From: Lentzea kentuckyensis
GTDB lineage: Bacteria > Actinomycetota > Actinomycetes > Mycobacteriales > Pseudonocardiaceae
Assembly: GCF_002150765.1 (NCBI RefSeq)
Contig: NZ_MUYM01000081.1
Coordinates: forward strand, 1 to 64,000
Direction of reading: 5' to 3'
DNA: 64,000 nucleotides
Shown here: positions 1,703 through 31,827 of the stretch, piece after piece
Layout: each line of letters starts with the position of its first letter
Numbering within the stretch: position 1 is the first letter of the stretch
The notes under the pieces: generated by a model
The model's database searches: none
What the model saw: only the letters and a program-made list of their open reading frames with translations
Told to the model about the DNA's origin: nothing
Translations under genes and position numbers: made by a program

Positions 1703-1750
1703 CGACCCAGCCCTGATGTCTCTCTCACGTGAAGCCCGAAGGAAGGTCCA

Positions 1751-2317: not shown

Positions 2318-2369
2318 GAAGTTTCTGTCGCTTCACCCTCGCGATCAGGCCGCTGACAAGGAGCCGATC

Positions 2370-13409: not shown

Positions 13410-13439
13410 TTGCACTGTGAGTGCTCCACGGTTTTGAAT
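13410..13439 (+). promoter_or_regulatory. Candidate relaxase promoter
   Basis: ttgcac at 13410 and ttgaat at 13434 are spaced by 18 bases, close to the sigma-70 pattern. A start of transcription near 13446 would leave the longest GTG (13421) outside the message and supports the later relaxase start. Weak evidence. Confidence 0.3.
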
Positions 13440-13510
13440 CGATAAACCACCGAGTTTTGCACGCTATTGGCGCGCGTGCTGGACGTCCTTTCACGACCGA
13501 GTTTGAGCTG

Positions 13511-16500
13511 GTGGTTGTGATCGGCGTGCGCAAGCTCTCGCCCGGTGGGCACCAGTACCTCACCGGCTCGGTGGCTTGTGCGGACCGCGGTCTGGAGGCC
13601 GGCGAGTCACTGTCGGACTACTACTTGGCGCACGGCTACCCACCTGGCGAATGGTTCGGGCGCGGCGCAGCCGTTCTGAACATGCACGGCGAAGTCACGG
13701 CCGCACAGATGAACGCGCTGTTCGGCGAAGGCCGCCACCCGGACGCAGACCGCATCCAGGCGGAGATGATCGCCCTCGGTCACACCGAGGCGGAAGCCTT
13801 GTCCGCCACCAAACTCGGCTACCGATTCCCGCAGTACGACGGCGCGGATCGGTTGCGCGGCAAAGTCATCGAGGCCTACAAGCGACACAACCTCGACAAC
13901 AACCTGCCGCCAGGCGCTCCGATCGATGACGCCACACGCGCGGACCTTCGTCGCCTCGTCCTGTCACAGGCTTACGCCGAGGAACACGAAGGCCAGCTCC
14001 CTTCAGAGGACGAGCTGACCAAGTGGCTCGCCGCTCAGAAGAAGGCCATGAAGTCGGCCGTCAGCGGCGTAGAGCTCGTTTGCGCGCCTCCAAAATCCGT
14101 CAGCGTCGCCTGGGCGCTCTCAGACAAACGCACCCGCGAGCTCATCGTGAGTCTGCATCGCCAAGCCGTGCGCGACACCCTCACCTACCTCGAGAACACC
14201 GTCGCGTACACCCGCAAGGGTGCAGGTGGGTACACGCAGCACGACGTGAAGGGGATCGCCGCAGCAATCTTCGAGCACTGGGACTCCCGCGCGGCCGACC
14301 CGCATCTGCACACCCACGTGCTGATCAGCACGAAGGTGCAGAGCCCGGATGGACGTTGGACTTCATTGGACGGTCGCACCGTCCTCGCCGCTGCAGTCAC
14401 GTTGTCGGAGTACTACAACAGCCGTGTTCGCGACCTCTGCCGCGAACACGGTGCCTCGTGGACCGAACGCCCCTCTGGTGGCATTGATGCGAAGCGGCCG
14501 ACGTGGGAACTGGACGGTGTGCCCGCCGCTCTGCTGACCGGCTTCTCTCAGCGCGCGGCCCAGGTCGAGCAGGACCGCGCCCGTCGAATCGTTGAATTCC
14601 GCCAACAGCACGGCCGAGAGCCTTCTCCCAAGGAGGTTCTCGAGATCTCCAAGCGTGCCCAGTACGGGACCCGAAGCAACAAGCAGGCGCCGCGGTCACT
14701 GGCCGAACACCTCCACCGCTGGCGTCTCCAGGCAGAGAAAATGGTCCCCGAGCAGGTGATCGATGCACTGGGGCAACGAGTGTTCGGCGGCCACGCCGAC
14801 AACATCTCGGACTTCAACCTGCACGAGGTCGCCAAGGCAACGCTCGCAGTTGTCTCCGACCAGCGCTGTCACTTCAACACCTGGAACATCGAAGCCGAAG
14901 CACATCGCCAGACCGCACACCTACGTGTCGCGGACGGTGGCCGCGACCAGTTGATCGCCGATGTCGTGCGTACGGTGCTGCAATCGCCTGACCTCGTGTC
15001 GCTGGAAGCGCCATCGCTCGTCGCCGAACCGAATGCCCTGCGGCGACGTTCCGGCGAATCGGTCTTCGTCGAGCACAACAGCCAGCGGTTCACGACCGGC
15101 CGAACCTTGCGCGAGGAGTCCGCCCTTGCGACCTGGGGTGACCTCACCAACGGCAGTCGTCTTCGCCCCGAGACTGTCGCCAACGCGATTTCTGAAGGGG
15201 GTTCGCTCAACCCCGGCCAGCGCGCAGCTGTCGCCTCGTTCGCGAAGTCTGGGCGCCGAGTGCAGCTGCTCTACGCCCCAGCCGGAGCCGGCAAGACCAC
15301 TGCAATGCGGGTCTACGCCAACGCCGTGCGCGCGGAAGGTGGCCGGGTGTACGCGTTCGGGCCGAGCGCACGGGCCGCGCACGTGCTCGCCGACGCGATC
15401 GACGCTCGCCCGCACACCCTCCACCAGGTCACCTTCGCGCAGAAGATAGGCGTTGCGGAGAAAGCCTTTCCGTTCCGCCGCGGCGATGTGCTCATCATCG
15501 ATGAGGTCTCGATGGCGGGCACCCACACGTTGCACGACGTCGTCGCCTTTGCCCTGCGCCGCGGAGCGGATGTCAGATTGGTCGGTGACGACAAGCAGCT
15601 CGCAGCAGTGGAAGCCGGTGGCGCGGTCCGCTGGTTCGCACACGTCCACGGCGCCGTGCGGCTCAAGGAGGTCGTGAGGTTCCGCGATCCCGGCCAGCGG
15701 GCCGCATCGCTCGCACTCCATGACGCTGATCCCGCCGGCCTCGACTACTACTTCGACCAAGGCTGGATCTCTGACGGCAGCCGCGAAACGATCCGAGACG
15801 CCGCACACCGTGCCTGGCGCAACGACCTCGACGCCGGCCACCAGTCTCTGCTGATCGTCCCGACCAACGACGACGTGACCGCGCTTAACCTCGAAGCCCG
15901 AGCGCTGCGCATGCTCCGCGGAGATGTGAGCGACAAGGGTCGGGCCGCACAACTTCACGACGGCACCCACGCCAGCGCCGGCGACTGGGTAGTCACCCGT
16001 CGCAACGACCGGCTCCGGACGTTGTTCGGCGGCAAGGACTTCATCAAGAACGGCGACACGTGGGACGTCGTCAAGGTACGTCGCGACGGTGCGCTGAAAC
16101 TGCGGCACCAGGTCAGCCGCGGCACCGTGGTGGTGCCCTGCAGCTACGTCACCGAGGAGGTCGAGCTGGGCTACGCGGCCACGATCAACCGCGTCCAGGG
16201 CATGACAAGCCGCGGTTCCGCGCATGCGATCGCCACCCACGGCATCTCTCGTGAACAGCTCTACACCCTCGCCACTCGCGCCGTGAACGACAACCGCATC
16301 TACGTCGAGACCCACCAGCACACCATCGACTCACACCAGGAGACGCCGCTCGACCGGACCGCACGTGGCGTGCTGGAGGCCGCGCTCACCCGTTCATCGG
16401 CCGAGACTGCCGCCAACGAGGAGCTGCGCAACGCCCTAGCGGCGGCCGAGTCGTTGAGCACGTTGGTCGGCCGTCACGACTACGTCGCACTGCTGGGCGT

Positions 16501-18379
16501 CGACGAGCAGGTTGAGGCGGTGCTCGCCGACCAGGTTCCTGAGCTGCTCGACCGTCCGGCCATCCCGGTGCTGCGCCAGACCCTCCGCACAGCCGAAGCC
16601 CTCGGCTGGCAGTCCGGACCATTGCTCGCGTCCGCTCTCTCGGCCGGCCCACTCGACACCGAGGACGTCGAGGATCCAGCGGCTGTGCTCCAGTGGCGTG
16701 TAAAGCAACGGCTGCTGGACAGCGACCCGCCCGCGCGGGTCTCCGCTCCGACCTTGGCCGACACGAACCGGTGGCGCAGCATCATCGAGCAGCATGCCCC
16801 TGCGGCCGCTGTCGAGGACAACATCTGGGAACCGGTGTGGCACCTTGCAGCCGCAGCGTCCGTGGAGGGCCTCGACGCCGACACCGCGATCGCCGACACC
16901 GCCCGCTGGCTTGCCGCACGGCCAACGGCTGATCCTCTGCCTGACCACCGGTTCGCCGCCGATGCCTTGCAGGCTGCGCTCCTAAAACAGCGCGACGAGG
17001 GCGGCGGGTGGCGCTCTGTGCTGCCATGGCTCGCGCATCCGAACCACCAGCAACTCCGCGATACCCCAGAGCTGTTCGACTATCTGCTGGGCCTGAACGA
17101 GGCGATGGGCGCGCGTGTCGAGGAGTTGCGAACGCTCGTCGTCGCTGACGAGCCGGCATGGGCAGCCGGACTAGGACCGCGCCCCCACCACGATCCCGCT
17201 GCTGCCGAACTGTGGGACGAGCTGGCGGGGCTGGGCGCGGCCTACCGGAACACTTACAACGTCACTACCAACGAGCCCCTTCGCCCACTAGGCGCAGAGC
17301 CCAAAGGCGACGGTCCACGCGCACGTGCGTGGCAAGACCTGATCGTCCGGTGGACGCCGCCGTCCACAAGCGACACCTCACACCCTGACCGCACCAAGAC
17401 CAACCGACCCAGCACCTTGGACAGGATGCGTGACGCGATCGACCCGGACGAACTGCTAGCTGTAATCGCTGCCGACGAAAACACTTCCTCACAGCCCTTC
17501 GAGGACTTGCACGACCTCGTGCGCCGCTACGAACGGAGTGCACGAGCAGCCGACGAACAGCACCTCGAAACCCAGATCACTCACGTCCTCGCCGCCCGCG
17601 CCCCCTCTGCGCTCGGGCAAGACGCCGAACCTGCACTGCGCTGGCTCCTACACCTTGCGCACAGCTGGGGTTGGACCATCGAGCAGGCAGTCCCTGACAG
17701 CGACAGCCTCTCCGGCCTCGATGGCGCACGCGATCCGGCCGCCGTGCTCTACCGACGGGTCGAACAGCGCATCCAACGTGCCGCCGCGCCAGGCGAACCG
17801 GAGCGGCCCCGCGGCCCACTCCCCTGGCTCGACGCCGCGGATCCAGCTGCGCTCACCGACCGACCCGAACTGGCAGAGCACCTCGACCAGCTCGCCCGGG
17901 CGATCACCGAGCGCGCGGCCCAGCTGCGCCAGGACGTCGCTGAGTCGCAGCCGCGTTGGTCTAGCGGTCTCGGCCCGCGTCCCATCGACTCGACCGCCGC
18001 ATCCCGGTGGGACGACCTGGCCGCAAGCGCTGCGGCCTACCGCGAGGCATACCGCATCACGACCAACAACCCAGACGTCCCGCTTGGGCCACAGCCCCGC
18101 AGGGACGACTCCCGTAGCCGAGCCTGGAACAAACTCAACGAACAGTGGAGGCCAGTCGTGACCACACCTGAAGATCAGTTCTCGTCGAACGAACGCCGGA
18201 TCGCAGCTCTGCGCGACGAAGTGATCGAACGAGCCGGAGATCTCCGCGACAACGTCGAGGTAATCGAGGCAAGGCTAGAAGACGCGCTTTCGGCGTGCAC
18301 CGATGCCGCGCACCACCGCTACGACGAGGCGGAGGACGTCGACGAACGGTGCGACCTCAAGTCCAGAATGGACCATTAA
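13511..18379 (+). CDS. traA: MobF-family (TrwC/TraA-like) relaxase-helicase
   Basis: This 1622-residue protein starts a conjugation cycle by nicking oriT, staying bound to the 5' end, and unwinding the strand. The TrwC relaxase domain (about 1-420) has candidate catalytic tyrosines Tyr16, Tyr37 and Tyr38 and the metal triad DPHLHTH (His265, His267, His269). The RecD-like helicase follows with Walker A GAGKT (Lys595) and Walker B IIDE (Asp664). Residues 1000-1600 hold two diverged repeats of about 265 residues, each ending in an LGPRP-W-AYR-PLG pattern. GTG 13511 gives the usual N terminus; the frame extends to GTG 13421 but that lies within the candidate promoter. It faces the minus-strand type IV secretion operon. 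Confidence 0.93.
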   Translation: MVVIGVRKLSPGGHQYLTGSVACADRGLEAGESLSDYYLAHGYPPGEWFGRGAAVLNMHGEVTAAQMNALFGEGRHPDADRIQAEMIALGHTEAEALSATKLGYRFPQYDGADRLRGKVIEAYKRHNLDNNLPPGAPIDDATRADLRRLVLSQAYAEEHEGQLPSEDELTKWLAAQKKAMKSAVSGVELVCAPPKSVSVAWALSDKRTRELIVSLHRQAVRDTLTYLENTVAYTRKGAGGYTQHDVKGIAAAIFEHWDSRAADPHLHTHVLISTKVQSPDGRWTSLDGRTVLAAAVTLSEYYNSRVRDLCREHGASWTERPSGGIDAKRPTWELDGVPAALLTGFSQRAAQVEQDRARRIVEFRQQHGREPSPKEVLEISKRAQYGTRSNKQAPRSLAEHLHRWRLQAEKMVPEQVIDALGQRVFGGHADNISDFNLHEVAKATLAVVSDQRCHFNTWNIEAEAHRQTAHLRVADGGRDQLIADVVRTVLQSPDLVSLEAPSLVAEPNALRRRSGESVFVEHNSQRFTTGRTLREESALATWGDLTNGSRLRPETVANAISEGGSLNPGQRAAVASFAKSGRRVQLLYAPAGAGKTTAMRVYANAVRAEGGRVYAFGPSARAAHVLADAIDARPHTLHQVTFAQKIGVAEKAFPFRRGDVLIIDEVSMAGTHTLHDVVAFALRRGADVRLVGDDKQLAAVEAGGAVRWFAHVHGAVRLKEVVRFRDPGQRAASLALHDADPAGLDYYFDQGWISDGSRETIRDAAHRAWRNDLDAGHQSLLIVPTNDDVTALNLEARALRMLRGDVSDKGRAAQLHDGTHASAGDWVVTRRNDRLRTLFGGKDFIKNGDTWDVVKVRRDGALKLRHQVSRGTVVVPCSYVTEEVELGYAATINRVQGMTSRGSAHAIATHGISREQLYTLATRAVNDNRIYVETHQHTIDSHQETPLDRTARGVLEAALTRSSAETAANEELRNALAAAESLSTLVGRHDYVALLGVDEQVEAVLADQVPELLDRPAIPVLRQTLRTAEALGWQSGPLLASALSAGPLDTEDVEDPAAVLQWRVKQRLLDSDPPARVSAPTLADTNRWRSIIEQHAPAAAVEDNIWEPVWHLAAAASVEGLDADTAIADTARWLAARPTADPLPDHRFAADALQAALLKQRDEGGGWRSVLPWLAHPNHQQLRDTPELFDYLLGLNEAMGARVEELRTLVVADEPAWAAGLGPRPHHDPAAAELWDELAGLGAAYRNTYNVTTNEPLRPLGAEPKGDGPRARAWQDLIVRWTPPSTSDTSHPDRTKTNRPSTLDRMRDAIDPDELLAVIAADENTSSQPFEDLHDLVRRYERSARAADEQHLETQITHVLAARAPSALGQDAEPALRWLLHLAHSWGWTIEQAVPDSDSLSGLDGARDPAAVLYRRVEQRIQRAAAPGEPERPRGPLPWLDAADPAALTDRPELAEHLDQLARAITERAAQLRQDVAESQPRWSSGLGPRPIDSTAASRWDDLAASAAAYREAYRITTNNPDVPLGPQPRRDDSRSRAWNKLNEQWRPVVTTPEDQFSSNERRIAALRDEVIERAGDLRDNVEVIEARLEDALSACTDAAHHRYDEAEDVDERCDLKSRMDH

Positions 18380-18562: not shown

Positions 18563-21500
18563 CTACTCGTCTAGTTGCTGGATCCTTACCGCGGCTCGAT
18601 CACCAGCACCAGCCAGACCGTCGATAATGCGGTGGTAGCGGCTTGGGGTATCCCCCAGGGCCACGCCCGTGCTGCGAAGCCCCATAACCCATTCCTCAAG
18701 CAGCCACAGGTGGTTGGCAATGAGGTCGTAGCGGCCGTCGATGATCGATTCGATCCAGGTCAGCGCGGTGGTCGTCTGCCACCGCACGGGTGCGCTCTTG
18801 GCGAATTTGATCACGGCGTCGACGGCTTTGGGGTTGCGTCGGCCGAGGTGCAGCCACCGGTCGGCGAGTGTGCCGAGTGCGTCTGGCTGAATCCAGTTTT
18901 GGCGGCAGCGGGTGAGAGTGCTGTCGATGTCGGGGTCCCAGGACCTCGGGTTCGGGGTGGGCAGCAGCGCTGCGACCATGTAGTCGAAATCGTGATGCTG
19001 GGAGCGCAGAGCAGTGCCGTCGACGACGGAGTCGAGGGCGATTTGCAGTGCCCAGGGCCAAAAGTCAACCATGGACCGCCGGAGCTCCTCGCGGTAGGTG
19101 AAGACAGTTGCAAAGCCGTCAAAGAGTTTGTGAAGGGCGTCGCTGTCGGTCGCGTAGCTCGTAATGTGCGCTTCGATGGGGCCACGGTCACCTTCGAGCG
19201 CGACGGTGATCATTCGCTGGGCGATCGGTTCGTGAGTGATGTGCACGTGATGGTCGTAGCCGTTGTTCCACCAGTGGGCGAGGCCTCTGAGGTGGGCTTC
19301 CCATAGTGGACCCCGCAGCTCAGCGATGGCACTGTGCAGGCAGGGAACGTGGCGGGCGTCGACCATGCACGTCAGCGGCATGCGCAGGCGGTTGACCAGA
19401 AGCGCGTTGTCGGCGACGGCCGCCAGGGACTCGTGTACTGGTGCCGGTAGCGGATCGGGTCGCCGCTGATGGGTCTGCTGGTCCGGCGGTCCGAGTCTGC
19501 TGTCGATCAGGCCCGCTGTAGCGGCGGCCCACACTGGTGCGTGCCGGCGGCAGCGGTCCGTGCCAGTGGCGGCGTCGCCGCCGAGGTCGTTGTTGATGTC
19601 GCACGCCGCGGCCCACACCGGCTCGCAGCCCAGTGCGTAAATCGCACGCACCTCGTCGAACGGGCTGGTGGCCAGGGAGTGCAGGCACTCCTGGATGCGC
19701 GACAGGTCCAGGCCAAGTTCGTCGAACGGCGCGAGCACAAGCAGAGGCGCGCATGCCGCTGCGGCGCGGTCAGCGCCCATGGCGAACATTGACCCGCTGT
19801 AACCCGTGTCGTTGCCGTGGGGATTGTCGGCGGCCCAGATCACCGCATCGACGGCCCACTCAAGATCAGCGGGCGTCACCGTTGCCAGGTCCAGCGCGTG
19901 GGCTCGCACGGCGGCTGCGGCCACGGCGACGAGGGCGTTCTCCGGCCAGGGCATGCCGGTAGGCGGGTGCTCGTTTTCGGCGATCGCGCGTGCGGCGGCG
20001 AGGTCGTCGGCGAGGGTGTCGACAGGCCAGTGTGCGGGATTGTCGTTGTGCCGGCCGTAGCGGTTCTGCAGTCCGTACAAGGTATTGGTCGTGTCCAACT
20101 CCGCAGTGCGGGGTGCGAGGACGTTCTCAAGCCGTTCGGGTCGTTCGAACTCGATGCGCAGGTGGTCGCCGTCTCGGCTCATCCGGTAGTTGTCGATGCG
20201 GAACTGTTCAGCCCAGCTCTCGATGACCGCGAGGTGATCGCGGTTGTCAACGGCGGAGCCGCCGAGTTCAGCGCGGGCGGTGGCGATGAGGCTGTCGCCG
20301 ATTGCCTGGAGCTGAGCCAGACGGTCGTCGTCGCCGGCGAGCCTGGCGTTGATGACCATCGTGCCCACGGTCTGCTGGAAGGTCTGCCGACGCCGCTCGG
20401 ACCCGGTCAGCTTGTCGGCGTCAGCGTCGCGTACGCGAAATCCGTAGTCGCTGCTGACGCGGGCGTGCTCGAGATGCCAGACGTCCGGGGACGCCAGGAA
20501 CGGATCGAGCAGCGCGCCGGTGATGTGTGGGTGCCGGGTCAGCGCGCCAACTAGCAGCGCGGGCATCGCGAGATTGTGGCAGTCGCGGAGCAAGACCTCG
20601 ACAAGCCTCTGCGCGGGAAAGTCCAGTTGCTCGAGCATGTAGTCGACGAACCGTTCCAGCGCGAGCAGCGCGCTCATGCACGCATACGGACCGACACTGG
20701 TGCCGCGGTACCACGCCCACACGTGGCTGTCGCCGACATAGAGGCGGTCACCGATTCCCGGCACATCAAGGTGTACACCCTCGAGGTCACCCGCGCCGGT
20801 TTCACTGGCAGGGGCACGCCGACCCGTGAGCTTCTGCACGCGAACGCTGGCGGCGTGGTCGAGCATCCTATTGATGAAGCCTATGGTGTGCATGGGATTG
20901 GTGTGCAGCAGGCGGAAGAACGGACCGTAGAACCATGCGGCCCGAGGCACACCGAATCCCGGGGTGAGACCGTGCTTGAAGTCGCGGATGCCGTCGTCGA
21001 AGTCGTGACCTCCCCAGCGATCGTGCACAGCCTTTTTGATGTAGTAGGCCTCGGCGAGATCGAGCAGCAACGTGGGTCGGGTCGCCGACATGCTGACCGC
21101 GACGTGGACCGACTCCACAGCGGCATTGAGGTGTCCTGGGCTGTCGTTGGCGACCTCACGCAGATACGCCTCCGCCCGGTCGTCCGCATCGGGCCCCAGG
21201 CACGCCAACGCTTCGATCGCGAAGTCGTCGTAGAGGGCAGGGTCGCCGTCAAGAATGACGTCACAGATCTCACGGCGCAGAGCATGCGGCTGTACGTGTG
21301 TGGCGGCCATGCCTCGCAGCCAGGCCAGCACCAGGTCCTGGATGACCTGGTGGACGGTGCGATGACCCGACCGTGGCTGGCCCTCGATCACAGGTCGTTC
21401 GCAGAACATGACCTTCACCAGTGGTGCGAGCGCGAACGCGTCGCCAACCTTGCCGCTGATGTAGCGGGTCTCGGCCAGACGCAGCAGCGTCATCAACCCG

Positions 21501-23839
21501 ACGCCATCGTTCTCGGTCAGAGTGCCCCACAGCCTGCGGACGGTCTCATCGGCGTCGCCGAGCGTCAGAAGGGCTTCGTAGGGCACTTCCCGCCACCGCT
21601 CCCCCTCGGTGGCGGCGATCTCGCTGAAACTGGCCGATAGGCGTGCCCAGGCGTGGGGGTTGCTCCGGTCGAGCAGGGCAGCCTGGCAGCCCAGACGGGC
21701 CGCGCGGATCGACCAGCGCGGGGCGCCGGCCACGGCCAGCGGCTGCCACCCCTGTGTGATGAACAGCCGACAGAGCGCGAAATCGCGGAATAGGTCCGTT
21801 GCGAACTCATCACCGGGTGAGAGAGCGGGATTGTGGGGCACCCGCAGCACGCCGTCCGAGCGCAGCTCGGCCGAGCCGGTACCCGCAGGTGCAACGGCGT
21901 CGATGCCGAGGGTGCGCCTGGCCACGCTCAGAGCCGCTTGTTCTCGGTCGTGGGGGGAAGCACCGCCCGGCGCATGGATTTCATCGCGCCGGATGAGGCT
22001 GCGCCACACCGCGGAGAACACATCCGCCTCGCACAGCAGATCGGCGGGATCAAGGACCGCGCCGGTCCTGAGCAGTACGTCGACAAGGCCAGGCCGCCCC
22101 AGCAGCCATTTGGCACGTGGATCACTGCCCAGCCTGGCCAGTGCGGTGAACGTGGTCGTGAGGCCGTCGCGCTCGTCGTCGGACAAGGGGCCCACCACAT
22201 GTTCGGCCGCAGCACGACCCGATCCGGCCAGTTCTATGCCGTGCGTCAGCTCGTCGCAGACTTGGCGTGAACCGTCAGTGCGCGTCACGGCCACGACACC
22301 GAAGCCAGCTCTCAGCGCGGCGGCGGCAACGGTGCGAAACACCTGACCTTTGCCTTCCAGGACCGACTCCGCGCCGTCGATGAGCACAATTCGGACGGGC
22401 CGCACTCGCCCCGCCGCCAGAACATCGTCGACGGCGTGCCCGCCCCACTGGCTCTCCAGTTCCGCCACGGCGTGAGGCAGATCGCGCAGGCTCAGACTGC
22501 ACACAGCCGCGCCCTGCTCCTCGAGCTCCTCCAACGCCCGCAACGACAACGCGGACTTGCCGACGTCGGGGTCACCGGTGACCACCACCGCGCCGGTGGA
22601 CGTGCCCACCGACCGCATGGCCTCCACCAGGCGGGCGCGTTCGCCGGAGCGCTGCAGCTCCAGCGACTGCGAAGCCGAACGCAACAACGGGCGGATCGAC
22701 TCGCGCAACCGTATACCGAGCCGGTCGATCATCTCCCAGGCGCGCGCGAATCGGGCGGAATGTGACAGCGGGAAGTCGGTCAAGGCGCGGCGGATCACCG
22801 ACTGCGTCAGCACTGCCGCTTGTGGTGCCCACACCCCCACTTGATCTTCGAGCCGTGAGAACAGCGCGTCCGCGGTGGCGGGCGTGCCGTTGTGCAGCAT
22901 TCGCTGCAGTGCAGTGACCGCTGCGGCGCGGTCGGCCCGGTCCGTCCGCTCCAGGCGCAAGCTCCGTATGCTCAGGCCGAACAACAGCCGCCAGGTCAGC
23001 TCCTGTGCACTCAGCCCACTGGCCGAGTCCAGCTTCTCCGCTGCTTTCTCGACCAGAGCCGTGATGTGTTCGAGCCGGTTGCGCAGCTCGGCGTTGGTTC
23101 GCCCTGGCTCGCTCACGCGACTGGCAAGCGCCTGCGCGCTAGGAAGACTCTCGGCGAGTGCTGCCAGCTCGGCCAGCTGCGCTATCGCGTTGGCGTTAGT
23201 GGACACCGCGAGCACGATCCGCCATCGCCCCGACGACACCTCGGACCAGTGCTCGGTGACGATCACCAGGAAATCCCGGATCAAGGGCACCGACTTTTTG
23301 TCGCTGGTGGTCAAGGCGGGGTTTCTGCGTACCGCGATCGACGAGCGATGCGTTCCGCCATGGTTGTCGCGGCCTTCCAGAACGATGTCATCGACAGTGC
23401 TGACGTCACTGGCCTGCAGACGAATCGTGTCGGCCGACAGGGCACCGCCCAGTTCCTGCGATGCCTCACCGGCCAAGAACCCAGCGATCAGGCACGCCGC
23501 ATAGGAATGTTCGAGACGGACGCCTCCGCCGCCTGTGGAGTACGGGCTCGAACCTGTCTCAGACTCCTCGTCGGCAAGCGAGTTCTCTGCCAGCCAGGCG
23601 CTGATCGACGGGTGAGAGACAACGAGCCGCCACAGGGTCGAGCGCCCCGACTTCGTCGAGGTGGCGAACCCAGCGTTGGACAGAGTCGAGAGTGCATCGT
23701 TCGCCGTGGTCGGAGACACCTTCAGCGCGCCAGCGATCTTGCGGCCCGAGAGGGGCTCGGGGCTCTCGGCGAGCGTCTTTAGGGCCCCGTATGCGGTATC
23801 GCTGAGTGTCGCCTGCAGGGTCTCCGCCGCTGTTGCCAT
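18563..23839 (-). CDS. Very large winged-helix/STAND ATPase protein, candidate defence or sensor protein
   Basis: This 1758-residue protein has four parts. Residues 1-75 form a winged helix (SGRKIAGALKVSPTTANDAL). Residues 108-200 resemble the Cap4-type PD-(D/E)XK nuclease layout, with Asp150-Asp151 in VDDIVLEG, then SIAVRR at 167-172; the usual Lys is Arg. Residues 410-600 carry a STAND-like P-loop GDPDVGKS (Lys428) and Walker B VLIDGAE (Asp488). The remaining 1100 residues are alpha-helical repeats, the typical sensor part of STAND proteins. No membrane segment is seen. It lies inside the conjugation module, behind a 57-bp palindrome, and does not overlap the transfer operon. Antiviral STAND proteins share this nuclease-ATPase-repeat order; I infer, but cannot prove, a similar role. 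A giant transcriptional regulator is the alternative. Confidence 0.8.
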   Translation of the reverse strand: MATAAETLQATLSDTAYGALKTLAESPEPLSGRKIAGALKVSPTTANDALSTLSNAGFATSTKSGRSTLWRLVVSHPSISAWLAENSLADEESETGSSPYSTGGGGVRLEHSYAACLIAGFLAGEASQELGGALSADTIRLQASDVSTVDDIVLEGRDNHGGTHRSSIAVRRNPALTTSDKKSVPLIRDFLVIVTEHWSEVSSGRWRIVLAVSTNANAIAQLAELAALAESLPSAQALASRVSEPGRTNAELRNRLEHITALVEKAAEKLDSASGLSAQELTWRLLFGLSIRSLRLERTDRADRAAAVTALQRMLHNGTPATADALFSRLEDQVGVWAPQAAVLTQSVIRRALTDFPLSHSARFARAWEMIDRLGIRLRESIRPLLRSASQSLELQRSGERARLVEAMRSVGTSTGAVVVTGDPDVGKSALSLRALEELEEQGAAVCSLSLRDLPHAVAELESQWGGHAVDDVLAAGRVRPVRIVLIDGAESVLEGKGQVFRTVAAAALRAGFGVVAVTRTDGSRQVCDELTHGIELAGSGRAAAEHVVGPLSDDERDGLTTTFTALARLGSDPRAKWLLGRPGLVDVLLRTGAVLDPADLLCEADVFSAVWRSLIRRDEIHAPGGASPHDREQAALSVARRTLGIDAVAPAGTGSAELRSDGVLRVPHNPALSPGDEFATDLFRDFALCRLFITQGWQPLAVAGAPRWSIRAARLGCQAALLDRSNPHAWARLSASFSEIAATEGERWREVPYEALLTLGDADETVRRLWGTLTENDGVGLMTLLRLAETRYISGKVGDAFALAPLVKVMFCERPVIEGQPRSGHRTVHQVIQDLVLAWLRGMAATHVQPHALRREICDVILDGDPALYDDFAIEALACLGPDADDRAEAYLREVANDSPGHLNAAVESVHVAVSMSATRPTLLLDLAEAYYIKKAVHDRWGGHDFDDGIRDFKHGLTPGFGVPRAAWFYGPFFRLLHTNPMHTIGFINRMLDHAASVRVQKLTGRRAPASETGAGDLEGVHLDVPGIGDRLYVGDSHVWAWYRGTSVGPYACMSALLALERFVDYMLEQLDFPAQRLVEVLLRDCHNLAMPALLVGALTRHPHITGALLDPFLASPDVWHLEHARVSSDYGFRVRDADADKLTGSERRRQTFQQTVGTMVINARLAGDDDRLAQLQAIGDSLIATARAELGGSAVDNRDHLAVIESWAEQFRIDNYRMSRDGDHLRIEFERPERLENVLAPRTAELDTTNTLYGLQNRYGRHNDNPAHWPVDTLADDLAAARAIAENEHPPTGMPWPENALVAVAAAAVRAHALDLATVTPADLEWAVDAVIWAADNPHGNDTGYSGSMFAMGADRAAAACAPLLVLAPFDELGLDLSRIQECLHSLATSPFDEVRAIYALGCEPVWAAACDINNDLGGDAATGTDRCRRHAPVWAAATAGLIDSRLGPPDQQTHQRRPDPLPAPVHESLAAVADNALLVNRLRMPLTCMVDARHVPCLHSAIAELRGPLWEAHLRGLAHWWNNGYDHHVHITHEPIAQRMITVALEGDRGPIEAHITSYATDSDALHKLFDGFATVFTYREELRRSMVDFWPWALQIALDSVVDGTALRSQHHDFDYMVAALLPTPNPRSWDPDIDSTLTRCRQNWIQPDALGTLADRWLHLGRRNPKAVDAVIKFAKSAPVRWQTTTALTWIESIIDGRYDLIANHLWLLEEWVMGLRSTGVALGDTPSRYHRIIDGLAGAGDRAAVRIQQLDE

Positions 23840-23841
23840 GG

Positions 23842-23898
23842 CGCGAACCCTACCGGTCTATGTCCAGAATTTCTGGACATAGACCGGTAGGGTTCGCG
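23842..23898. repeat. Perfect 57-bp palindrome upstream of the STAND gene
   Basis: Two exactly complementary 28-base arms flank one central base (23870). The inner part reads tgtccagaa-t-ttctggaca and the outer part gaccggtagggttcgcg. It ends two bases before the ATG of the 1758-residue protein, so the whole 5' leader, including the only Shine-Dalgarno-like stretch (ggtaggg), would fold into a hairpin in RNA. It could be an operator for the protein's own winged helix, a translational lock, or a terminator for the transfer operon. Confidence 0.9.
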
Positions 23899-23969: not shown

Positions 23970-24545
23970 TCACCTGAGCTTTTCATCAATCTCGTACCGG
24001 TCCCCGCGGGCTCGCCCGTCGTCGCGGTGGTCTCCGTCGAGGCAGTCGGGGCTCCCCCACTCACGGGCAAGTCGGTCAGCGAAGCCTGGTCGCCACTGGT
24101 GCAGCCACTGCTGTGCGTCCCGTTCGGTAGTGTTCGGGCCAACGTTAGCCGCACGCCAGCTGTAAGCAAGCGCCGCGACCTCCATCGCCAGTCCGGGATG
24201 TTGGCTCCAGCACTGAGGAATCGGCCGAGCACGGCTCCCGTCAACGCCAACGAACGTGACATTGTACCAAGCCACGAAGTTGTCGACGGTGTTCCGCGGA
24301 TCTCCGTCTCCAGCAGGGTCGCTCTCGGCAGCTGCAGGCGGGCTGAACCACACCCACGGGGCTGGCTCGGCCACAGCTTCCTCGTCCGCACTGGACTCCG
24401 GTCCGGGTCTCGCAACCAACTGGTTGACCCTGTCTTCGACGCGGCGCAGCTTCCGCGTCAGCGCCTCGACGAGATCAGTCAGCGCCGAGATCTGAGCATC
24501 CCGGTCTCCCACATCGGCACCCGACCGCGCTGCCTCGCCGCTCAT
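23970..24545 (-). CDS. DUF4913 protein, last gene of the transfer operon
   Basis: This is a 191-residue protein. The start at 24545 overlaps the stop of the coupling protein gene (ATGA); the longer frame upstream is a shadow of that gene. Residues about 15-45 form a coiled coil (LTDLVEALTRKLRRVEDRV). The C-terminal 110 residues match the DUF4913 pattern with spaced Trp: FVAWYNVTF, IPQCWSQHP, and DAQQWLHQW. DUF4913 proteins occur on actinobacterial conjugative elements; their function is unknown. Coupling to the T4CP gene suggests it acts in substrate recruitment. Confidence 0.8.
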   Translation of the reverse strand: MSGEAARSGADVGDRDAQISALTDLVEALTRKLRRVEDRVNQLVARPGPESSADEEAVAEPAPWVWFSPPAAAESDPAGDGDPRNTVDNFVAWYNVTFVGVDGSRARPIPQCWSQHPGLAMEVAALAYSWRAANVGPNTTERDAQQWLHQWRPGFADRLAREWGSPDCLDGDHRDDGRARGDRYEIDEKLR

Positions 24546-26410
24546 GCCGCGAATCCGCCGAGCTGGCCGGTCCTCAACCCTGCTCCGACAGCGAGCCCGT
24601 CCGAACCGAGCTCGACCTGCCCGTCGCGCACAGCCTGAACGTGGCTGCAGATCATCTTCCAATCGGGTCGTTTCCGCACATCGACGGTACGGGCCAGGAT
24701 CGGGGCAAGGTGGCGGTGGATCACCAGAACGCGACCGCGGCGCACGCGACGAACGTCGCCTGGCCGGTAGGTGGGCACCGTCTCCAGCCCGACCGAGGTG
24801 CGGGCATGGCCAAGAAGGCCGTCGCTTTGCTGCTGGTACCGACGACGATCGTGATGCCCCGTCAGCAAGGAAACCCACTCCAAGGTGGTCCGGTCCTTGA
24901 TCCCGCCCCAGACCGACAAGGTCGTGGTGTTGTCCAACAGCTGACGGGTTCGCTGGGTACCGAACGCATCTTCCAGTGCTGCCACGGTTTGAGCGCCCCA
25001 GTGGATGAGCACGCCACGGCCGGCGGAATCGGAGATGATGTCCGGGACCTGCGGTACGGGAGTCGCGTTCGTGATCTCGTCGAGGATCGCGGAGGCAGGT
25101 GGGTCGAGGCGGCGGTTCGGAGAGTGCAGCGCCATTTCCTGCGCAGTCGTCAGCCAATGCTCAACAAGCGCAGTAAGAATCGGCGCGGCCTGCGCGGACT
25201 GGTGCTGGCCGGCGATCAGGTACAGCGAGCCTTGCTGTGCCAGGAACTCCCGCACATCGAAGTCCTGGCCGGGAGCAGGAGTGCACAGCTCTCGAATCTG
25301 CGGGGCCATGAAAGGCTCGATCACCCGCCGCACGCTCAGCCACACCGCGTCTGATGTCTCGGCGACCAAGCCGATCTCCGAGCGCAGGTTCCGGGCGTAC
25401 TCGTGCAGGCCGGCCTGCTGCAGCAGCCGGACCGGTTCCTGGTCGACCGGCTTGCTGATCGCCCACCGCACCAAGTCGTCGACGCCGCGGCCGTGCGTCG
25501 CAGCAGCCAGGAAGTAGGCCTGCAGCACCACTTTCGCTCTGTCGCGGAAGACCTTGTCGTTGCCGCCCAGCCCGGTCAGGCCTACAGAGGCGGCCTCGAC
25601 CATCGTGTGCGAACGGCGGTACGCCACGGTCGTGTCGTCGCATCCCTGCATCGGCCACCAGTGCACTCGAGCCGGCCAGGAAACCGTGCCGGTCAGGTCG
25701 ATCAACTTCACCGGCGCAGCAGGACGGCGGCCGACGCGGAGCAGAGCGGTGAACTCCAACAAATCGGGCTTCGTAGTCGAGCACAGCAACGCACCGGGCG
25801 CCGCGATCACCTTGTGCACCAGGTCCTGACGGCTCTTGCCGGACTGGGTCGGGGCAAGAGTGCCGGTGGGATTCTCGAGCGGTGTGCACATCGGCTCATG
25901 CCACTGCGTGAGATGCAACGGCACCGCTACTTCCTCCAGCGGTGCCTGCCGTACCTGCGCACGAGAGAGGCTCGGCCGGGTCCATGCAGCGGTGCGACGG
26001 CCTGCAGCCAACGACAGTTCTTCCCTGACATCCTCGCGTTTCGCGTGTCCTGCTGCAGTTGGGCCGAACCGCCGCCAGGCGGACAACACCGCGGCCAGCA
26101 TCAGTCCGCTGAGGACGACCAGCAGCATGCTCGTGACGGTCCAGTACAAACCGGTGTGCGAAGAAAGGGTGCTGGACCACGGCTCGCCCAGGCCGATGGC
26201 AGGTTGTCCCGGCTGCGCGACGATGCCGAGCGCCTGGGTCAACCAGGTGTCGAAGCCGGGTAGCTTCCAGGGCCCGCCGAGCAACACGGTGCTCAGCGCG
26301 ACGCCGAGCATCAGCACGCTGGCGACAGCAGCGAGTGTGCTGAGCGCGGCGACGATCAGGCCAATCAATGCCAGGTCACGGTCGCCAGTGGGCGACACCG
26401 CGGTCCTCAT
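24542..26410 (-). CDS. VirD4/TraG-type coupling ATPase
   Basis: This 622-residue protein is the type IV coupling protein that links the relaxase-DNA complex to the secretion channel. Two N-terminal membrane segments (residues about 15-45 and 88-110) are followed by the ATPase domain with Walker A PTQSGKS (Lys192) and Walker B AILDE (Asp444, Glu445). The GQHQSAQ motif before Walker B and HWGAQT after it match the TraG/TcpA arginine-finger region. It overlaps the gene on each side by four bases, so it is made as part of one transfer operon. Confidence 0.9.
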   Translation of the reverse strand: MRTAVSPTGDRDLALIGLIVAALSTLAAVASVLMLGVALSTVLLGGPWKLPGFDTWLTQALGIVAQPGQPAIGLGEPWSSTLSSHTGLYWTVTSMLLVVLSGLMLAAVLSAWRRFGPTAAGHAKREDVREELSLAAGRRTAAWTRPSLSRAQVRQAPLEEVAVPLHLTQWHEPMCTPLENPTGTLAPTQSGKSRQDLVHKVIAAPGALLCSTTKPDLLEFTALLRVGRRPAAPVKLIDLTGTVSWPARVHWWPMQGCDDTTVAYRRSHTMVEAASVGLTGLGGNDKVFRDRAKVVLQAYFLAAATHGRGVDDLVRWAISKPVDQEPVRLLQQAGLHEYARNLRSEIGLVAETSDAVWLSVRRVIEPFMAPQIRELCTPAPGQDFDVREFLAQQGSLYLIAGQHQSAQAAPILTALVEHWLTTAQEMALHSPNRRLDPPASAILDEITNATPVPQVPDIISDSAGRGVLIHWGAQTVAALEDAFGTQRTRQLLDNTTTLSVWGGIKDRTTLEWVSLLTGHHDRRRYQQQSDGLLGHARTSVGLETVPTYRPGDVRRVRRGRVLVIHRHLAPILARTVDVRKRPDWKMICSHVQAVRDGQVELGSDGLAVGAGLRTGQLGGFAA

Positions 26411-27543: not shown

Positions 27544-29043
27544 CTACCCGGCCTGACGCAGCTGTGCGTTTGTGTCGAAGACCCGCCGCTCCGCGCCCGA
27601 CAACACCGTCTGGACCTTGTAACCGGGCGCGTTCTCCACCTTCCACAGCGCGCGGCCCTGGCGATCCATCGCCCAACCCGTGATGACCTCTTGCTCGCGT
27701 TCCGACAGCCCCAAGGCTTCGGCGAGCTCATCGGCGACTCGTGTGGACTGACCTAGCAGCACGCGAGTAGAGCACAGGGCGAGAAGGTCTCGGGCTATGG
27801 CAACTTCCTGCGAGCCTGCCGCGCCGACCGACATAAGGTCACTCGGCTTGTGTGCGATCAGGACCTGGATGCTCTTCTCGATGCGGGACAGCCGCAGTTC
27901 TGAGTCGGCGGCCTGCACGGCGCGCAGCCCGAGCCGCATCTGCCGCCACATCTCGTCGCGCACCACGATGCGGATGTCGCCGTCGGCCTGCAGATCCGTC
28001 GCCATGCTCGACCACGACCCGAGGCAGGTCAGAGCGACTGCGATCGCTTGGTCGCCACGGGAGCGCAACAACGACAGGTCCATTGACTGCACTGGCGCGT
28101 CCCAGTCGAGCCGGATGTTGGTTTCCTCATCGAACAGGCCGGCCAGCGGGCCGGAGATGAGATTGCCCAGCGCGTCAGTCATCGGCCGGAGCGCGTCGAG
28201 GAACTGACGGCGGTCAGCGAACCGGGTGGTCTCACACAGCACGTTGTCCGGGTCTGCCAGCACCCGCTGCACGTCGGGGATGGTGATCGGCCGCAGCTCG
28301 GTGTAGCCGTCCCCGATACCCACCAGTCCCCGCAGGACCGCTGAAAGCACAGCCTCGTCGGTCACGGTGGGCTCGTAGCCCTGCGCATCGGCCAGCGCCA
28401 CCAACAGCTTGACCCAGCGGCCGAGGACACCGGCTAGTTCTTCGCGTTGACGGGAAACCGACCAACTGTTCCAACGGCTGCGCAATGGCCCAAGGTCCAG
28501 CGCGTTGAGTCGAGCAGGGCTCCCTCGACCGAGCGCGATCGGCGTGTTGCCCATTGCACGGACCAGCGGGCTGTACTCCCCCTTGACGTCTCCGGCGATC
28601 AAGCTGCGGAACCCGAACATCATCATCCGCAGCAGGAACGCCGCGATCGTGCTCGACTTACCGCGACCGGGTTCACCGAACACGATGAGGTTCGGGTTGG
28701 TCGACAGTCCACGTAGGACCCATTCGACGGGGTGGACGTAGAACGCACCGCCCGACAACGTGTCGTATCCCATCCGCGCCCCCACCGCAGGCACACCCGC
28801 GGCGGCCAGCAGAGGGAACAAGCCACCGATTTCGCTGGTGGCAGCCTGGTAGACCGCAAGTGGCGCCTCGACAGGCGACCAACCTTCACCTGGGCGCGCC
28901 CGACCTCGCCGCGGTGCGATCGGCCGGTTGACCCGATCTCGGGCTGTCCTCGGCTGCTGTGGCGCACGTGTCGTATCCGGCAGCGCACCGAAAGTACCGA
29001 GCAGCTGAGCCACGCTGCGCTCACCAGCACGTCTACGGCTCAC
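27544..29043 (-). CDS. VirB4-like transfer ATPase
   Basis: This 499-residue ATPase probably powers assembly of the secretion channel. The P-loop is GEPGRGKSS (Lys129), just after NLIVFG, and Walker B is RIVVRDEMW. The IAHKPSD stretch is typical of the VirB4/TraC C-terminal domain. The first 50 residues are basic and Pro-rich. The protein is shorter than classic VirB4 (about 800 residues) because the N-terminal half appears to be carried by the separate PrgI/SCO6880 protein, whose gene it overlaps (GTGA). Confidence 0.85.
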   Translation of the reverse strand: MSRRRAGERSVAQLLGTFGALPDTTRAPQQPRTARDRVNRPIAPRRGRARPGEGWSPVEAPLAVYQAATSEIGGLFPLLAAAGVPAVGARMGYDTLSGGAFYVHPVEWVLRGLSTNPNLIVFGEPGRGKSSTIAAFLLRMMMFGFRSLIAGDVKGEYSPLVRAMGNTPIALGRGSPARLNALDLGPLRSRWNSWSVSRQREELAGVLGRWVKLLVALADAQGYEPTVTDEAVLSAVLRGLVGIGDGYTELRPITIPDVQRVLADPDNVLCETTRFADRRQFLDALRPMTDALGNLISGPLAGLFDEETNIRLDWDAPVQSMDLSLLRSRGDQAIAVALTCLGSWSSMATDLQADGDIRIVVRDEMWRQMRLGLRAVQAADSELRLSRIEKSIQVLIAHKPSDLMSVGAAGSQEVAIARDLLALCSTRVLLGQSTRVADELAEALGLSEREQEVITGWAMDRQGRALWKVENAPGYKVQTVLSGAERRVFDTNAQLRQAG

Positions 29044-30545
29044 AACAGACCTCCTCGCTGCCGCGGCAACCCGATCCCGACCGGGAGCACGGCTGCAACG
29101 AATGCGGAGTCCTGCGCCAGTTCCAACCTGAGCAACCGGAATCGACCGCTCGCGTCGTTCTCCAACCGCGCAGCGTGGTCCTCGACGTTCCAGCTGCTCG
29201 GCACGGTGACTGACGCCGCCAGGGCAAACCGCACAACCGAGTGACCAGCAGCGACAGCACGCTCCTGCACGAGGGCACCGCGAGCATCGCGCTCCTCCAT
29301 GGCGGAGGCGTTGAAACCCTTGCGCCGCTTCATATCTGTCATCACGTTCGTGCGAAACCTGTTGCCGCGAACGGCCCGCTGCGCACGGCGCGCATCAAGA
29401 ACCTCATAGTGAATGGCCAAGGTTCGCCGCTCCCCTGCCGTACGAACAGCGAGCAACGGACCGAGGCTGCCGAACACGGTGCCCGCTTCAGGCATCAACG
29501 CGGTGTAGGCGACGGTGGTGAAGCCGTCGTGGGTGTAGGAACGTGCGGATGGAACAGGTGTGGCGGTCGGCCCGGCCGCCGCCTTCTCCAACCCCCGACC
29601 GCGGGTGCCACGTTCGTTTGCCGCGGCCAGCAACGCCCGTGCGGCTGGGTTGAACCCGGTACGAAGGGCTTCGGCCATGCCCGGCCCGTCCAGCCATTGG
29701 ACAGTGCGAGCTCCGAGTGCCTTGAGCGGGTCCTCCAGACCGTCCAGTACCCGATAGAGCGCCTGCGCGCGACCTGCGACACCGCCGCCGGCGGCAGCGG
29801 CCGGCTTGCGGAGCTTGTCCTCCGAGCCGGACACCACGACGAACAGCTCGTGCCTGACCGAGACGTTGCCGATGATGTGGTCCAACTCGGCGTTGGCCTG
29901 ACGGGCCAGCGCAGGCGCGTCGCGGATCTCATGATCGCCGCGCCACACCTCGTACTCAGTTCCGTCGTCCGGCACGGTGCGGACCAGCAGGCTCAACCGA
30001 TCTACGACATCGCGGTGGCCCAGCGACAGCAGCAGGGTGCCAAGCCGATTTGCCAGCCGCTCACACTGCTCATCGGACAACATTCCGACACCGGAGTGGG
30101 TCAGCCTGGCGGCCGCACCCCACCGGCCCTCAACAGTGTCGTGTATCAAACAGACACGACCGACGTCCCGAAACTGCGGGCCGTCCGGAAAGCTCACGCG
30201 CTGGAGCGCACCTGGCAGGTCAGGCTCATTCGGGTCGACTGGCATACCGGCGGCGGCCTTCGACTGCCAGCGCGACCAGCCGGTGATGATGCCGACCTCG
30301 AAGAGCACAAGGTGCGCCAGCCAACGCATCGCGGGACGGCCACGCACCGGAACCACCACGAGCGCGGCGATCGTTCCGCAGACCAACAAGAGAATCCCCG
30401 CGTCTGCAAACCGACCAGCGCTGATCGCCCACAACACCGGCGCCCCCAGTGCGATGCAGACAAGTGCCTGCAGTGGGGTCAGGCCCATGATCCAACCGGC
30501 GTGCTCACGACGGTCAAGTCCTCTGTAGATCCGGGGCGTGGTCAT
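29040..30545 (-). CDS. SCO6880/PrgI-family transfer protein
   Basis: This 501-residue protein begins with a PrgI-like module (YRGLDRRE, then two membrane helices at about residues 24-65) and continues as a large cytoplasmic domain resembling the N-terminal half of VirB4. Proteins of this SCO6880 type accompany the VirB4-like ATPase in actinobacterial type IV secretion loci. The gene overlaps both neighbours by four bases (ATGA and GTGA). No nucleotide-binding motif is visible, in keeping with a structural role at the inner membrane. Confidence 0.85.
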   Translation of the reverse strand: MTTPRIYRGLDRREHAGWIMGLTPLQALVCIALGAPVLWAISAGRFADAGILLLVCGTIAALVVVPVRGRPAMRWLAHLVLFEVGIITGWSRWQSKAAAGMPVDPNEPDLPGALQRVSFPDGPQFRDVGRVCLIHDTVEGRWGAAARLTHSGVGMLSDEQCERLANRLGTLLLSLGHRDVVDRLSLLVRTVPDDGTEYEVWRGDHEIRDAPALARQANAELDHIIGNVSVRHELFVVVSGSEDKLRKPAAAAGGGVAGRAQALYRVLDGLEDPLKALGARTVQWLDGPGMAEALRTGFNPAARALLAAANERGTRGRGLEKAAAGPTATPVPSARSYTHDGFTTVAYTALMPEAGTVFGSLGPLLAVRTAGERRTLAIHYEVLDARRAQRAVRGNRFRTNVMTDMKRRKGFNASAMEERDARGALVQERAVAAGHSVVRFALAASVTVPSSWNVEDHAARLENDASGRFRLLRLELAQDSAFVAAVLPVGIGLPRQRGGLL

Positions 30546-31825
30546 ACGATCACCGCCGCTTCCTCAGCTCCTGCAGCAGCTTCGCCGCCGCCTTTGCCTT
30601 CGGCTCCGTAGTCACCCGAAGGGCCGGTGTTGGGGCTCGACGAGACGACCGATCCGGTATTGGCGGCAGGTGGCACGGACTCGTGGTCATCGTCGGGATT
30701 CGGCTCGTCCGATCCGGCGCCGCTCGAGTCGTCACCGGACGTGGCGCTCTTGTTGTCCTGGTTAGAGTTCTGCGAGGCAGAATGGCTGCTTGACGACTGT
30801 CCGACGCCAGTCTCGTCCATCTCGTGCTCGGCGTACTCAGCGGCGGCTTCGTCGAACCGGCCGGTGTTTGCATCTTCCTGGGAACCGCCGCCGCCCCCTC
30901 CGCCGCGTGCACCGGACGCTGCCAGAGCTGCCGGATTGTTCTCGCCGTAGGAGTCGACACCTGCTCCGGACAGGGCATCACGGAACGCAGCACCGGCATC
31001 GCTGTTGGGGTCCACGAAGGCGAACAGCCGGAACAGGACGAACGGGCAGCACAACGAGATGATCAGCACTCCAACACCCGCGAGCAGACCGGACAACCCC
31101 TTCGATCCACCGGAGATCGCGATTCCCAGCACCAGAGTCATCGCCAGCATGGCCTTCATCGCGACGCACACCATCAGCCACCGGCACGTCCGCCAGAACC
31201 ACGAGGCGGTGATGCCGGACAGCAGCCCAGCCGCCGAGACCGGCACGGTCGCGACCATGACGTAAACAGCCGCTTCGCGGAAGAGCATCTCCAGCACGTA
31301 GCCGATTCCGGCCGGGATCACTCCGATCAAAGCTGCGATGCCGAGCACGGTGGCGTTCACCCCGTCGCCGGCCGCGTCGAGGAACCCGGTCGCGTTGAGT
31401 GCGTCGGTGAAGTTCTCCGCCCGTAGTCCGTACTTCAGGATCCCGGAGGTGAGCCCGTCGACCCCGGCCAAGAACGCCGCGACGATTCCAACGGTCAGGG
31501 CGAGCGCAACGCCGTACTGCACGGGTCCTCCCACCAGCCGTAGAAAACCCCGGCCGCCCCGCAACGTCGTGGCGATCAGTTGCCAGAAGAACAAACCGAG
31601 CGCGAGGACACCGCTGATCCACAGCATCATCGGCCACAAGATCGAAACCGGTCCGCTACGCGTGTCCACCGTGAACACCGAGAACTTGTCCGCCAGGCCG
31701 AACGCCGCCTGCAGGACGAACAGGGATGCCCGCCACAGAGCCAGCATCGCGGCCTCGAACCCGGTGACGATCATGTCCCGGACCGGTCCGCCGAGCGCGT
31801 TGCCGATGTCGTCGAAGGGCCACAT
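30542..31825 (-). CDS. VirB6/TrbL-like multi-spanning membrane protein
   Basis: This 427-residue protein has about seven membrane segments in residues 20-280 and an acidic, Ser/Gly/Asn-rich disordered tail of about 130 residues. The topology and the position between the PrgI-like and VirB8-like genes match VirB6/TrbL/TcpH, the polytopic channel component. A Gly-only run and repeated Ser-Asn stretches make the tail low in complexity. It overlaps the PrgI-like gene start (ATGA) and follows the VirB8-like gene by two bases. Confidence 0.82.
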   Translation of the reverse strand: MWPFDDIGNALGGPVRDMIVTGFEAAMLALWRASLFVLQAAFGLADKFSVFTVDTRSGPVSILWPMMLWISGVLALGLFFWQLIATTLRGGRGFLRLVGGPVQYGVALALTVGIVAAFLAGVDGLTSGILKYGLRAENFTDALNATGFLDAAGDGVNATVLGIAALIGVIPAGIGYVLEMLFREAAVYVMVATVPVSAAGLLSGITASWFWRTCRWLMVCVAMKAMLAMTLVLGIAISGGSKGLSGLLAGVGVLIISLCCPFVLFRLFAFVDPNSDAGAAFRDALSGAGVDSYGENNPAALAASGARGGGGGGGSQEDANTGRFDEAAAEYAEHEMDETGVGQSSSSHSASQNSNQDNKSATSGDDSSGAGSDEPNPDDDHESVPPAANTGSVVSSSPNTGPSGDYGAEGKGGGEAAAGAEEAAVIV

Positions 31826-31827
31826 CT

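Follow-up and report, generated by a model that had tools for sequence, protein, structure and literature searches.

According to part of one account, the antiviral STAND receptors Avs1 to Avs4 recognise terminase, portal or another phage protein (PMC12931631), and the title of structure 8dgf is that of Avs4 bound to a phage portal. A defence receptor with the ability to kill its host cell has to be kept inactive. To our knowledge, the regulation of single-gene STAND receptors has been little studied. Partial accounts of two other regulators state that BrxR binds inverted repeats (PMC9122601), and that AfsR activates the afsS promoter through direct repeats, with a DNA box overlapping the -35 (PMC10936776). 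The window analysed here, a stretch of 64,000 nucleotides from Lentzea kentuckyensis, contains a giant gene that is fairly likely to encode a mobile, Avs4-type, single-gene defence receptor which represses its own promoter through a fused winged helix.

The gene, its domains and its likeness to Avs4

Gene P0001 (positions 18563..23839, minus strand, stop codon included) encodes a STAND protein of 1758 amino acids. A sequence-only reading of this DNA had described a single gene of this length that joins a winged helix, a nuclease-like segment, a STAND-type P-loop ATPase and helical repeats, and the gene is real, with relatives that run to near full length. Among the matches listed, nearly full-length relatives that are 58–83% identical are found in 11 genomes (Actinophytocola, Tessaracoccus, Nonomuraea, Nocardia, two Arthrobacter, Microbacterium, Agromyces, Planctomonas, Mycobacterium and one further actinomycete). 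Since 10 of these 11 also share an (M/V)ATA start, neither the open reading frame nor its start is a product of chance. The motifs GDPDVGKS (K428) and VLIDGAE (D488) are both present as claimed, and the lysine and the aspartate are invariant in an alignment of 45 sequences.

AlphaFold2 models (mean pLDDT of 89 for residues 1–870 and 87 for residues 800–1758) bear out the winged helix, the STAND-type ATPase and the helical repeats. The modelled order is a winged helix, an alpha-beta core with helices, a STAND/NACHT ATPase, and helical repeats to the C-terminus. Pfam matches on the whole protein (AAA_16, HTH_11 and nSTAND3) are all weak and below their cut-offs. The winged-helix domain (residues 1–86; 23582..23839, minus strand; HTH_11 E 0.0026, below its cut-off) is modelled with helices at residues 14–25, 32–39 and 43–55 and strands at 59–64 and 67–72. 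It is followed by a nuclease-fold module (residues 103–356; 22772..23533, minus strand), with an alpha-beta-beta-beta-alpha-beta core at residues 106–231 and helices that continue to about residue 354. The STAND/NACHT ATPase and the helical domains after it (residues 361–870; 21230..22759, minus strand) contain the Walker A K428 and the Walker B D488, and the Avs4-type helical-repeat sensor, as modelled, comprises residues 800–1758 (18566..21442, minus strand). An effector-type domain, then STAND, then a repeat sensor on one chain is the AVAST/Avs order.

The neighbours of the gene are conjugation genes, and no known defence gene directly adjoins it. A TrwC-type relaxase/helicase lies on one side (13421..18379, plus strand; Pfam TrwC E 1.4e-79) and a TraG/TrwB-type coupling protein on the other (24542..26410, minus strand; Pfam TraG-D_C E 8.7e-17). 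The earlier placement between a relaxase and a transfer operon is therefore partly verified: the relaxase and the coupling protein stand, and at E 1e-3 Pfam finds nothing in the five genes called at 27544–34360. Among the window genes scanned (7 + 20), there is neither an SMC nor a HerA partner. Elsewhere on the contig are a DpdA-like protein (window positions 4058–4942, plus strand; Pfam DpdA E 5e-54), of a family known from modified-purine DNA systems, and a DprA-like protein (window positions 1641–3248; E 1e-47).

The strongest link to Avs4 is found in the sensor. The C-terminal 959-residue model aligns with 8dgf_A over 817 residues (Z 22.8, rmsd 6.7, 12% identity), spanning Avs4 residues 611–1587, and the next-best row has a Z of 10.3. 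Helical repeats often score middling in structure comparison, so the gap to the next row counts for more than the score itself. Foldseek also matches the sensor to Avs4 (E 2.2e-12, TMq 0.54). The front half is less specific. Foldseek places Avs4 at the top (E 6.3e-13), with a TM of only 0.23, since the domains cannot be superposed as a single body. A PDB sequence-profile search has 8dgf as its best match, by way of the ATPase (E 1.3e-6, against 0.018 for the next entry). In VIA-align, animal NLR proteins come first and Avs4 is at rank 8 (Z 17.2, rmsd 23.6), while the ATPase region alone (residues 361–865) matches NLR proteins such as NLRC4 (Z 19.1). As modelled, the structure of the front half does not single out Avs4. 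The structure prediction and fold search proposed by the sequence-only reading returned an LmuA fold for the module and NLR and Avs4 rows for the ATPase.

A profile comparison with Avs families was proposed at the same time. NCBIfam NF041815 (Avs4) matches part of the sensor at E 4.6e-9, with 34.1 bits against a curated cut-off of 1500. This profile and a second one for Avs4, which probably share part of their source sequences, match residues 906–1101 and 913–1072. When PDB sequences were searched with a profile of just the sensor, Avs4 was not among the matches up to E 1, the best of which was unrelated (E 0.53). An Avs4 family search of 246 genomes returned no matches; it also missed the window's own protein, for which hmmscan does give a match, and is therefore insensitive, so that its zero does not mean absence, and in its control 1 of 14 genomes matched, none above the cut-off.

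Taken together, the models and profiles support an Avs4-like STAND receptor which, judged by the curated bit-score cut-off, is not an Avs4 orthologue. The earlier proposal of an Avs-like or new defence gene can accordingly be narrowed to an Avs4-like one, on the 8dgf sequence-profile match, the sensor alignment and the NCBIfam match; its defence part draws on homology, effector swapping and some of the neighbours. By its fold, the sensor would bind portal, and its ligand may differ from that of Avs4, given a sensor identity of only about 12%. The family brings Avs4-type sensing into actinobacteria in a form so far below the curated Avs4 cut-off that it is easily missed.

The putative operator and the winged helix

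The winged helix, listed earlier only as a domain, is the most informative part of the protein. A core operator, ATGTCCA-N7-TGGACAT (23860..23880), lies 20 bp upstream of the start codon, inside a 45-bp palindrome (23848–23892) with 20-nt arms and a 5-nt centre. A putative -10 element, TAGGGT (23847..23852, minus strand), is located 7 nt before the ATG. When the upstream regions of the 11 genes of the winged-helix clade were aligned, there was little conservation save for the ATGTCCA-N7-TGGACAT block next to the start. The operator is present in all 11 (with one mismatch in L020), and in the second clade it is carried by L062 (one mismatch) and L096. A further gene, L152, was fetched through its winged helix before its upstream region was read, and the exact site was then found there.

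An intact winged helix is accompanied by the operator in 14 of 14 genes (12 exact, two with one mismatch). Sixty loci lack the winged helix (43 of family members, 17 of module-only proteins), and at none of them was the operator found from -500 to +400 of the open frame with up to three mismatches. In the Planctomonas relative (L022), the winged helix is degraded and the operator is absent. A chance palindrome was considered and rejected: in 73 loci comprising 1,475,088 bases, some of which (L026, L046, L086) include little upstream sequence, all 12 sites with two or fewer mismatches lie just before winged-helix genes. A search of 296 genomes for the winged helix itself gave matches in 14. At 11 of the match places (L153–L163, open frames of 204–729 aa, with about 1.5 kb covered on each side), the site is absent and the nearest sequence has three mismatches. 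It is likewise absent at two weak places (L164, L165), and L151, which is on the same contig as L020, was counted once.

The site is also close to unique within genomes. Whole-genome scans covered 13 genomes, other than those of L096 and L152. The exact site occurs once per genome in 10 of them; the remaining three are those of L020 and L062, with a one-mismatch site in the locus, and L022, with none. A reversed control pattern gave no sites in the same 13 scans. The window's own 10.2-Mb assembly (92% complete) contains one site only, at the gene's own promoter, even when one mismatch is allowed.

The spacing suggests how the site could act. In 13 of 13 genes, the gap between site and start is 16–20 nt, and in 13 of 13 a TANNNT ends 6–7 nt before the start (2000 shuffles: mean 0.57, maximum 4). 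The Shine-Dalgarno words tested for are missing in 11 of the 13. These features probably represent a leaderless promoter, with the palindrome just upstream of the -10 element, that travels together with the winged helix. What the sequence-only reading had called the gene's own leader is better read in this way, as a leaderless promoter with an operator, given a -10 box 7 nt from the ATG. The palindrome could instead form an RNA hairpin, but this is less likely: its half-site letters are conserved, and since most of the palindrome is upstream of the -10 box, a hairpin would escape transcription from the inferred start.

Autorepression through the fused winged helix is probably the simplest reading of this putative operator, because operator and winged helix co-occur, and because of the operator's position and its uniqueness. 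An operator at the gene's own promoter together with a DNA-binding domain, as expected of a self-repressing regulator, is what was found (14/14 with the winged helix against 0/60 without). Quite unlikely, in comparison, is an Avs4-like receptor whose winged helix takes part in sensing (of DNA, for example) or in assembly, the palindrome being the target of a different regulator of the host. Binding of DNA by a winged helix need not be sequence-specific, and the shape of an operator alone does not name its binder. Another regulator would nevertheless have to account for a site that follows the intact winged helix, is missing without it and is missing in the degraded case, and one exact site in each of 10 genomes is unlike a host regulator with many targets.

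A STAND transcription regulator of the AfsR or MalT kind, controlling other genes, would likewise combine a winged helix, STAND and helical repeats, and AfsR is described, in part of one source, as a STAND protein with a DNA-binding domain (PMC10936776). This is highly improbable here and was rejected on the uniqueness of the operator, which in the window's own assembly occurs only at the gene's own promoter. The protein has no SARP or BTAD Pfam match, and it carries a nuclease-fold module and an Avs4-type sensor. Within the part of the literature that was covered, no published case was found of a STAND receptor in defence that has a winged helix fused to it and an operator of its own, and the association of ATGTCCA-N7-TGGACAT with a winged helix may not have been reported before.

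The N-terminal module and the spread of the family

In VIA-align, residues 103–356 match LmuA (9hr5_A, Z 11.3, rmsd 3.6; 9nxx_D, Z 11.4, rmsd 3.7; 194 residues aligned in each). Rows for Cap4, HerA-DUF4297 and Hachiman/HamA start where LmuA does and run on into the ATPase, and the rmsd is large for those of Cap4 and HerA-DUF4297. A PDB sequence search with the module alone gave a best E of 0.55, and the module itself has no Pfam match in the module-only proteins scanned. The catalytic motif of PD-(D/E)xK nucleases of the LmuA/Cap4 type is (E/Q)-x-K. As for the nuclease-like segment of the earlier reading, the fold was found, and the catalytic Q-x-K is replaced by A169-V170-R171.

Residues were counted in 75 aligned modules, including five purpose-fetched rows (L166–L170) and with near-identical rows unthinned; rows without the TGGGG motif (L026, L031, L042, L097) were left out. 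Q142, D150 and D151 are kept in all 75, and E110 is kept in 64 and replaced in 11. In 69 modules, A or G at position 169 goes with R at position 171, and the other six have Q and K at these positions. The six are L099, a distant plasmid relative, and L166–L170, which were found along with it. By these alignments, an ordinary-looking Q-x-K form of the module exists, and the form in the window is without it. Nuclease action of the module appears doubtful because the catalytic lysine is arginine in 69 of 75 rows. A self-repressing receptor whose module is an active nuclease, using R171 in place of the lysine, is a minority reading. It would explain why Q142, D150, D151 and R171 are conserved beyond what a bare fold needs, but it sits poorly with the coupling of the catalytic changes and with the replacement of E110.

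The module is not confined to this receptor. It also occurs on pentapeptide repeats (L078), a PQQ propeller (L100), STAND plus TPR (L085) and TPR plus PIN (L088), and more generally a TGGGG...VDD...VRR module is seen on unrelated C-termini in many actinobacteria (L075–L093, 17 module-only rows with L100). Conversely, the plasmid relative L097 has a trypsin-like N-terminus: it is 91.4% identical to L052 over 1406 aa, and the N-termini are unrelated. L042 is a second trypsin-like form. His and G-x-S-G are kept in both, and we read these as the catalytic residues. From these alignments, the N-terminal module is swappable, between nuclease fold and protease, on a nearly unchanged receptor, and an interchangeable N-terminus of this kind is as expected of an effector. 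The acquisition of a protease by fusion to Avs, with the nuclease separate, has already been published, as part of one account states (PMC12799240); in the present family, a nuclease-fold module and a protease have been exchanged in nature. A trypco2 gene adjoins L097, and a trypco2 and a trypsin-like gene lie about 8 kb from the gene of L096. Trypsin-like peptidases with Trypco partners are described in part of one source (PMC7159879).

The relatives comprise five first sequences and at least 76 loci from a genome scan. Eleven plasmid records contain a match, which in four of these records covers 80% or more of the query. There was no match in the phages searched, and one weak match only in the viral contigs searched. 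Within the genus Lentzea, 4 of 24 genomes contain a match, and the winged helix is found in the window's genome only (1/24). Judged from the sequences, such patchy, 58–83% identical copies across several actinobacterial families are a mobile-gene pattern. The window's own genome has a second family member (L014, contig C56), 29% identical and without the winged helix; genes for an NNH1-NACHT STAND protein of 1500 aa and for a patatin of 1059 aa lie close to it. In a Lentzea genome, the relative is followed by a 1490-aa protein (L012:12695-17167) with weak AAA_16 and HEAT repeats, no PADLOC match and an N-terminus that is nuclease-like by eye. In Streptomyces sp. CCM_MD2014, a broken relative is present in copies close to the two ends of the chromosome (L035, L036), probably in terminal repeats.

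The winged helix is intact in 10 of the 11 nearly full-length relatives, the exception being Planctomonas. In a 51-row tree, which left out six partial rows and the 17 module-only proteins, it occurs in two parts that are separated by relatives without it. The fewest changes that explain its history are two, and a single clade was rejected (p-AU 7.6e-6) in a test on 33 of the 51 rows, chosen against long branches and run under a simpler model, with the winged-helix group named after the first tree. The window's winged helix is 45–48% identical to those of the second clade, and the rest of the protein 29–34%. Either a cassette of promoter plus winged helix was transferred from one lineage to another, or it has been lost repeatedly.

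A few of the relatives have defence genes nearby. AbiEi and AbiEii are found about 0.6 kb upstream of one winged-helix gene (L038), AbiEii about 1 kb upstream of another (L082), and HmaC about 1.7 kb downstream of a relative without the winged helix (L068). Ten neighbours picked by eye gave a PADLOC match for four and none for six. In a wider comparison, up to four nearest called genes of at least 100 aa were taken at 37 of 44 loci, with four genes from a single other stretch of each genome as controls (145 and 146 genes, of which one and four long ones were dropped). At E 1e-10, the 144 neighbours matched 126 PADLOC models and the 142 control proteins 57; these figures count models rather than proteins, with the 25 commonest models shown for each list. 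The control set included at least one strongly matching CARF-family protein. The comparison is therefore no more than suggestive.

A fixed link with conjugation genes was considered and is not supported: blastp of the window genes against the genes called in L011–L100 found TrwC-like relaxases at three loci only (L018, L022 and L057). The receptor could also be a defence or exclusion gene of the conjugative element itself, with a sensor that recognises rival plasmids or conjugation proteins instead of phage. Its position between relaxase and coupling protein would fit, as would the TrwC-like relaxases flanking those three loci, of which L018 and L022 are in the winged-helix clade, and the 11 plasmid records. 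This is unlikely, however, as the sensor fold matches portal-bound Avs4, and 11 of 13 winged-helix loci have no homologue of the window's relaxase in flanks of up to 10 kb.

Proposed mechanism and comparison with known systems

As a self-repressing Avs4-type receptor, the protein would take part in phage defence, DNA binding and effector action, all of which we infer. By its fold, the C-terminal repeats would recognise a protein of the invader, the likeliest candidate being a structural protein of a phage such as portal, and the STAND ATPase, as in its family, would then switch and oligomerise. The switch would activate the N-terminal LmuA/Cap4-fold module with its substituted active site, which could be the effector or a non-catalytic nucleic-acid-binding module. 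At rest, the winged helix would bind the private palindromic operator upstream of the -10 element and repress the gene. By setting its own level in this way, the receptor could reduce self-toxicity and enter new hosts safely. More tentatively, phage sensing could turn the operator-bound repressor into an oligomer that releases the promoter, so that the effector fires and more receptor is made; the operator, the promoter and the winged helix would then make up a portable cassette joined to two different Avs4-like lineages.

Regulator, DNA site and receptor appear to form one inherited unit with a defined 21-bp operator, and the question of self-regulation can therefore be tested with one small domain and one promoter. 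Control by a DNA-binding repressor at a defence promoter is shared with BrxR, CapW and similar defence repressors. According to partial accounts, BrxR (PMC9122601) and CapW (PMC9122588) are separate WYL-domain proteins, whereas the receptor described here contains the DNA-binding domain itself. HTH domains are also found in conflict-system proteins of the TRADD-N and STAND kinds; the part of the source that deals with these proteins reports an ECF-like HTH in TRADD-N proteins and describes no private operator (PMC8195603). AfsR, a SARP-STAND protein, likewise has an N-terminal DNA-binding domain on a STAND/TPR protein, as stated in part of its description (PMC10936776). The present protein differs from AfsR in the palindrome at the promoter of its own gene, in its nuclease-fold module and in its Avs4-type sensor. 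An OmpR-type DNA-binding domain and BTAD are absent, and Pfam at up to E 1 gives weak HTH_11, IclR, GntR and MarR-type matches.

The fold of residues 103–356 is shared with the nuclease domains of LmuA, Cap4, HerA-DUF4297 and HamA, most cleanly with LmuA (rmsd 3.6–3.7). The module differs from these in having A-V-R for Q-x-K and in the lack of an SMC or HerA partner among the scanned window genes, and the SAVED domain of CBASS Cap4 is absent from the protein (no such Pfam match up to E 1). The closest described system is Avs4 (AVAST type 4; 8dgf; NF041815), with which the protein shares the STAND ATPase, the whole C-terminal sensor fold and an N-terminal module before the ATPase. Unlike Avs4, it has a sensor of 12% identity that scores 34 bits, far below the 1500-bit cut-off, an LmuA/Cap4-fold module with a substituted active site, and an extra winged helix with a private operator.
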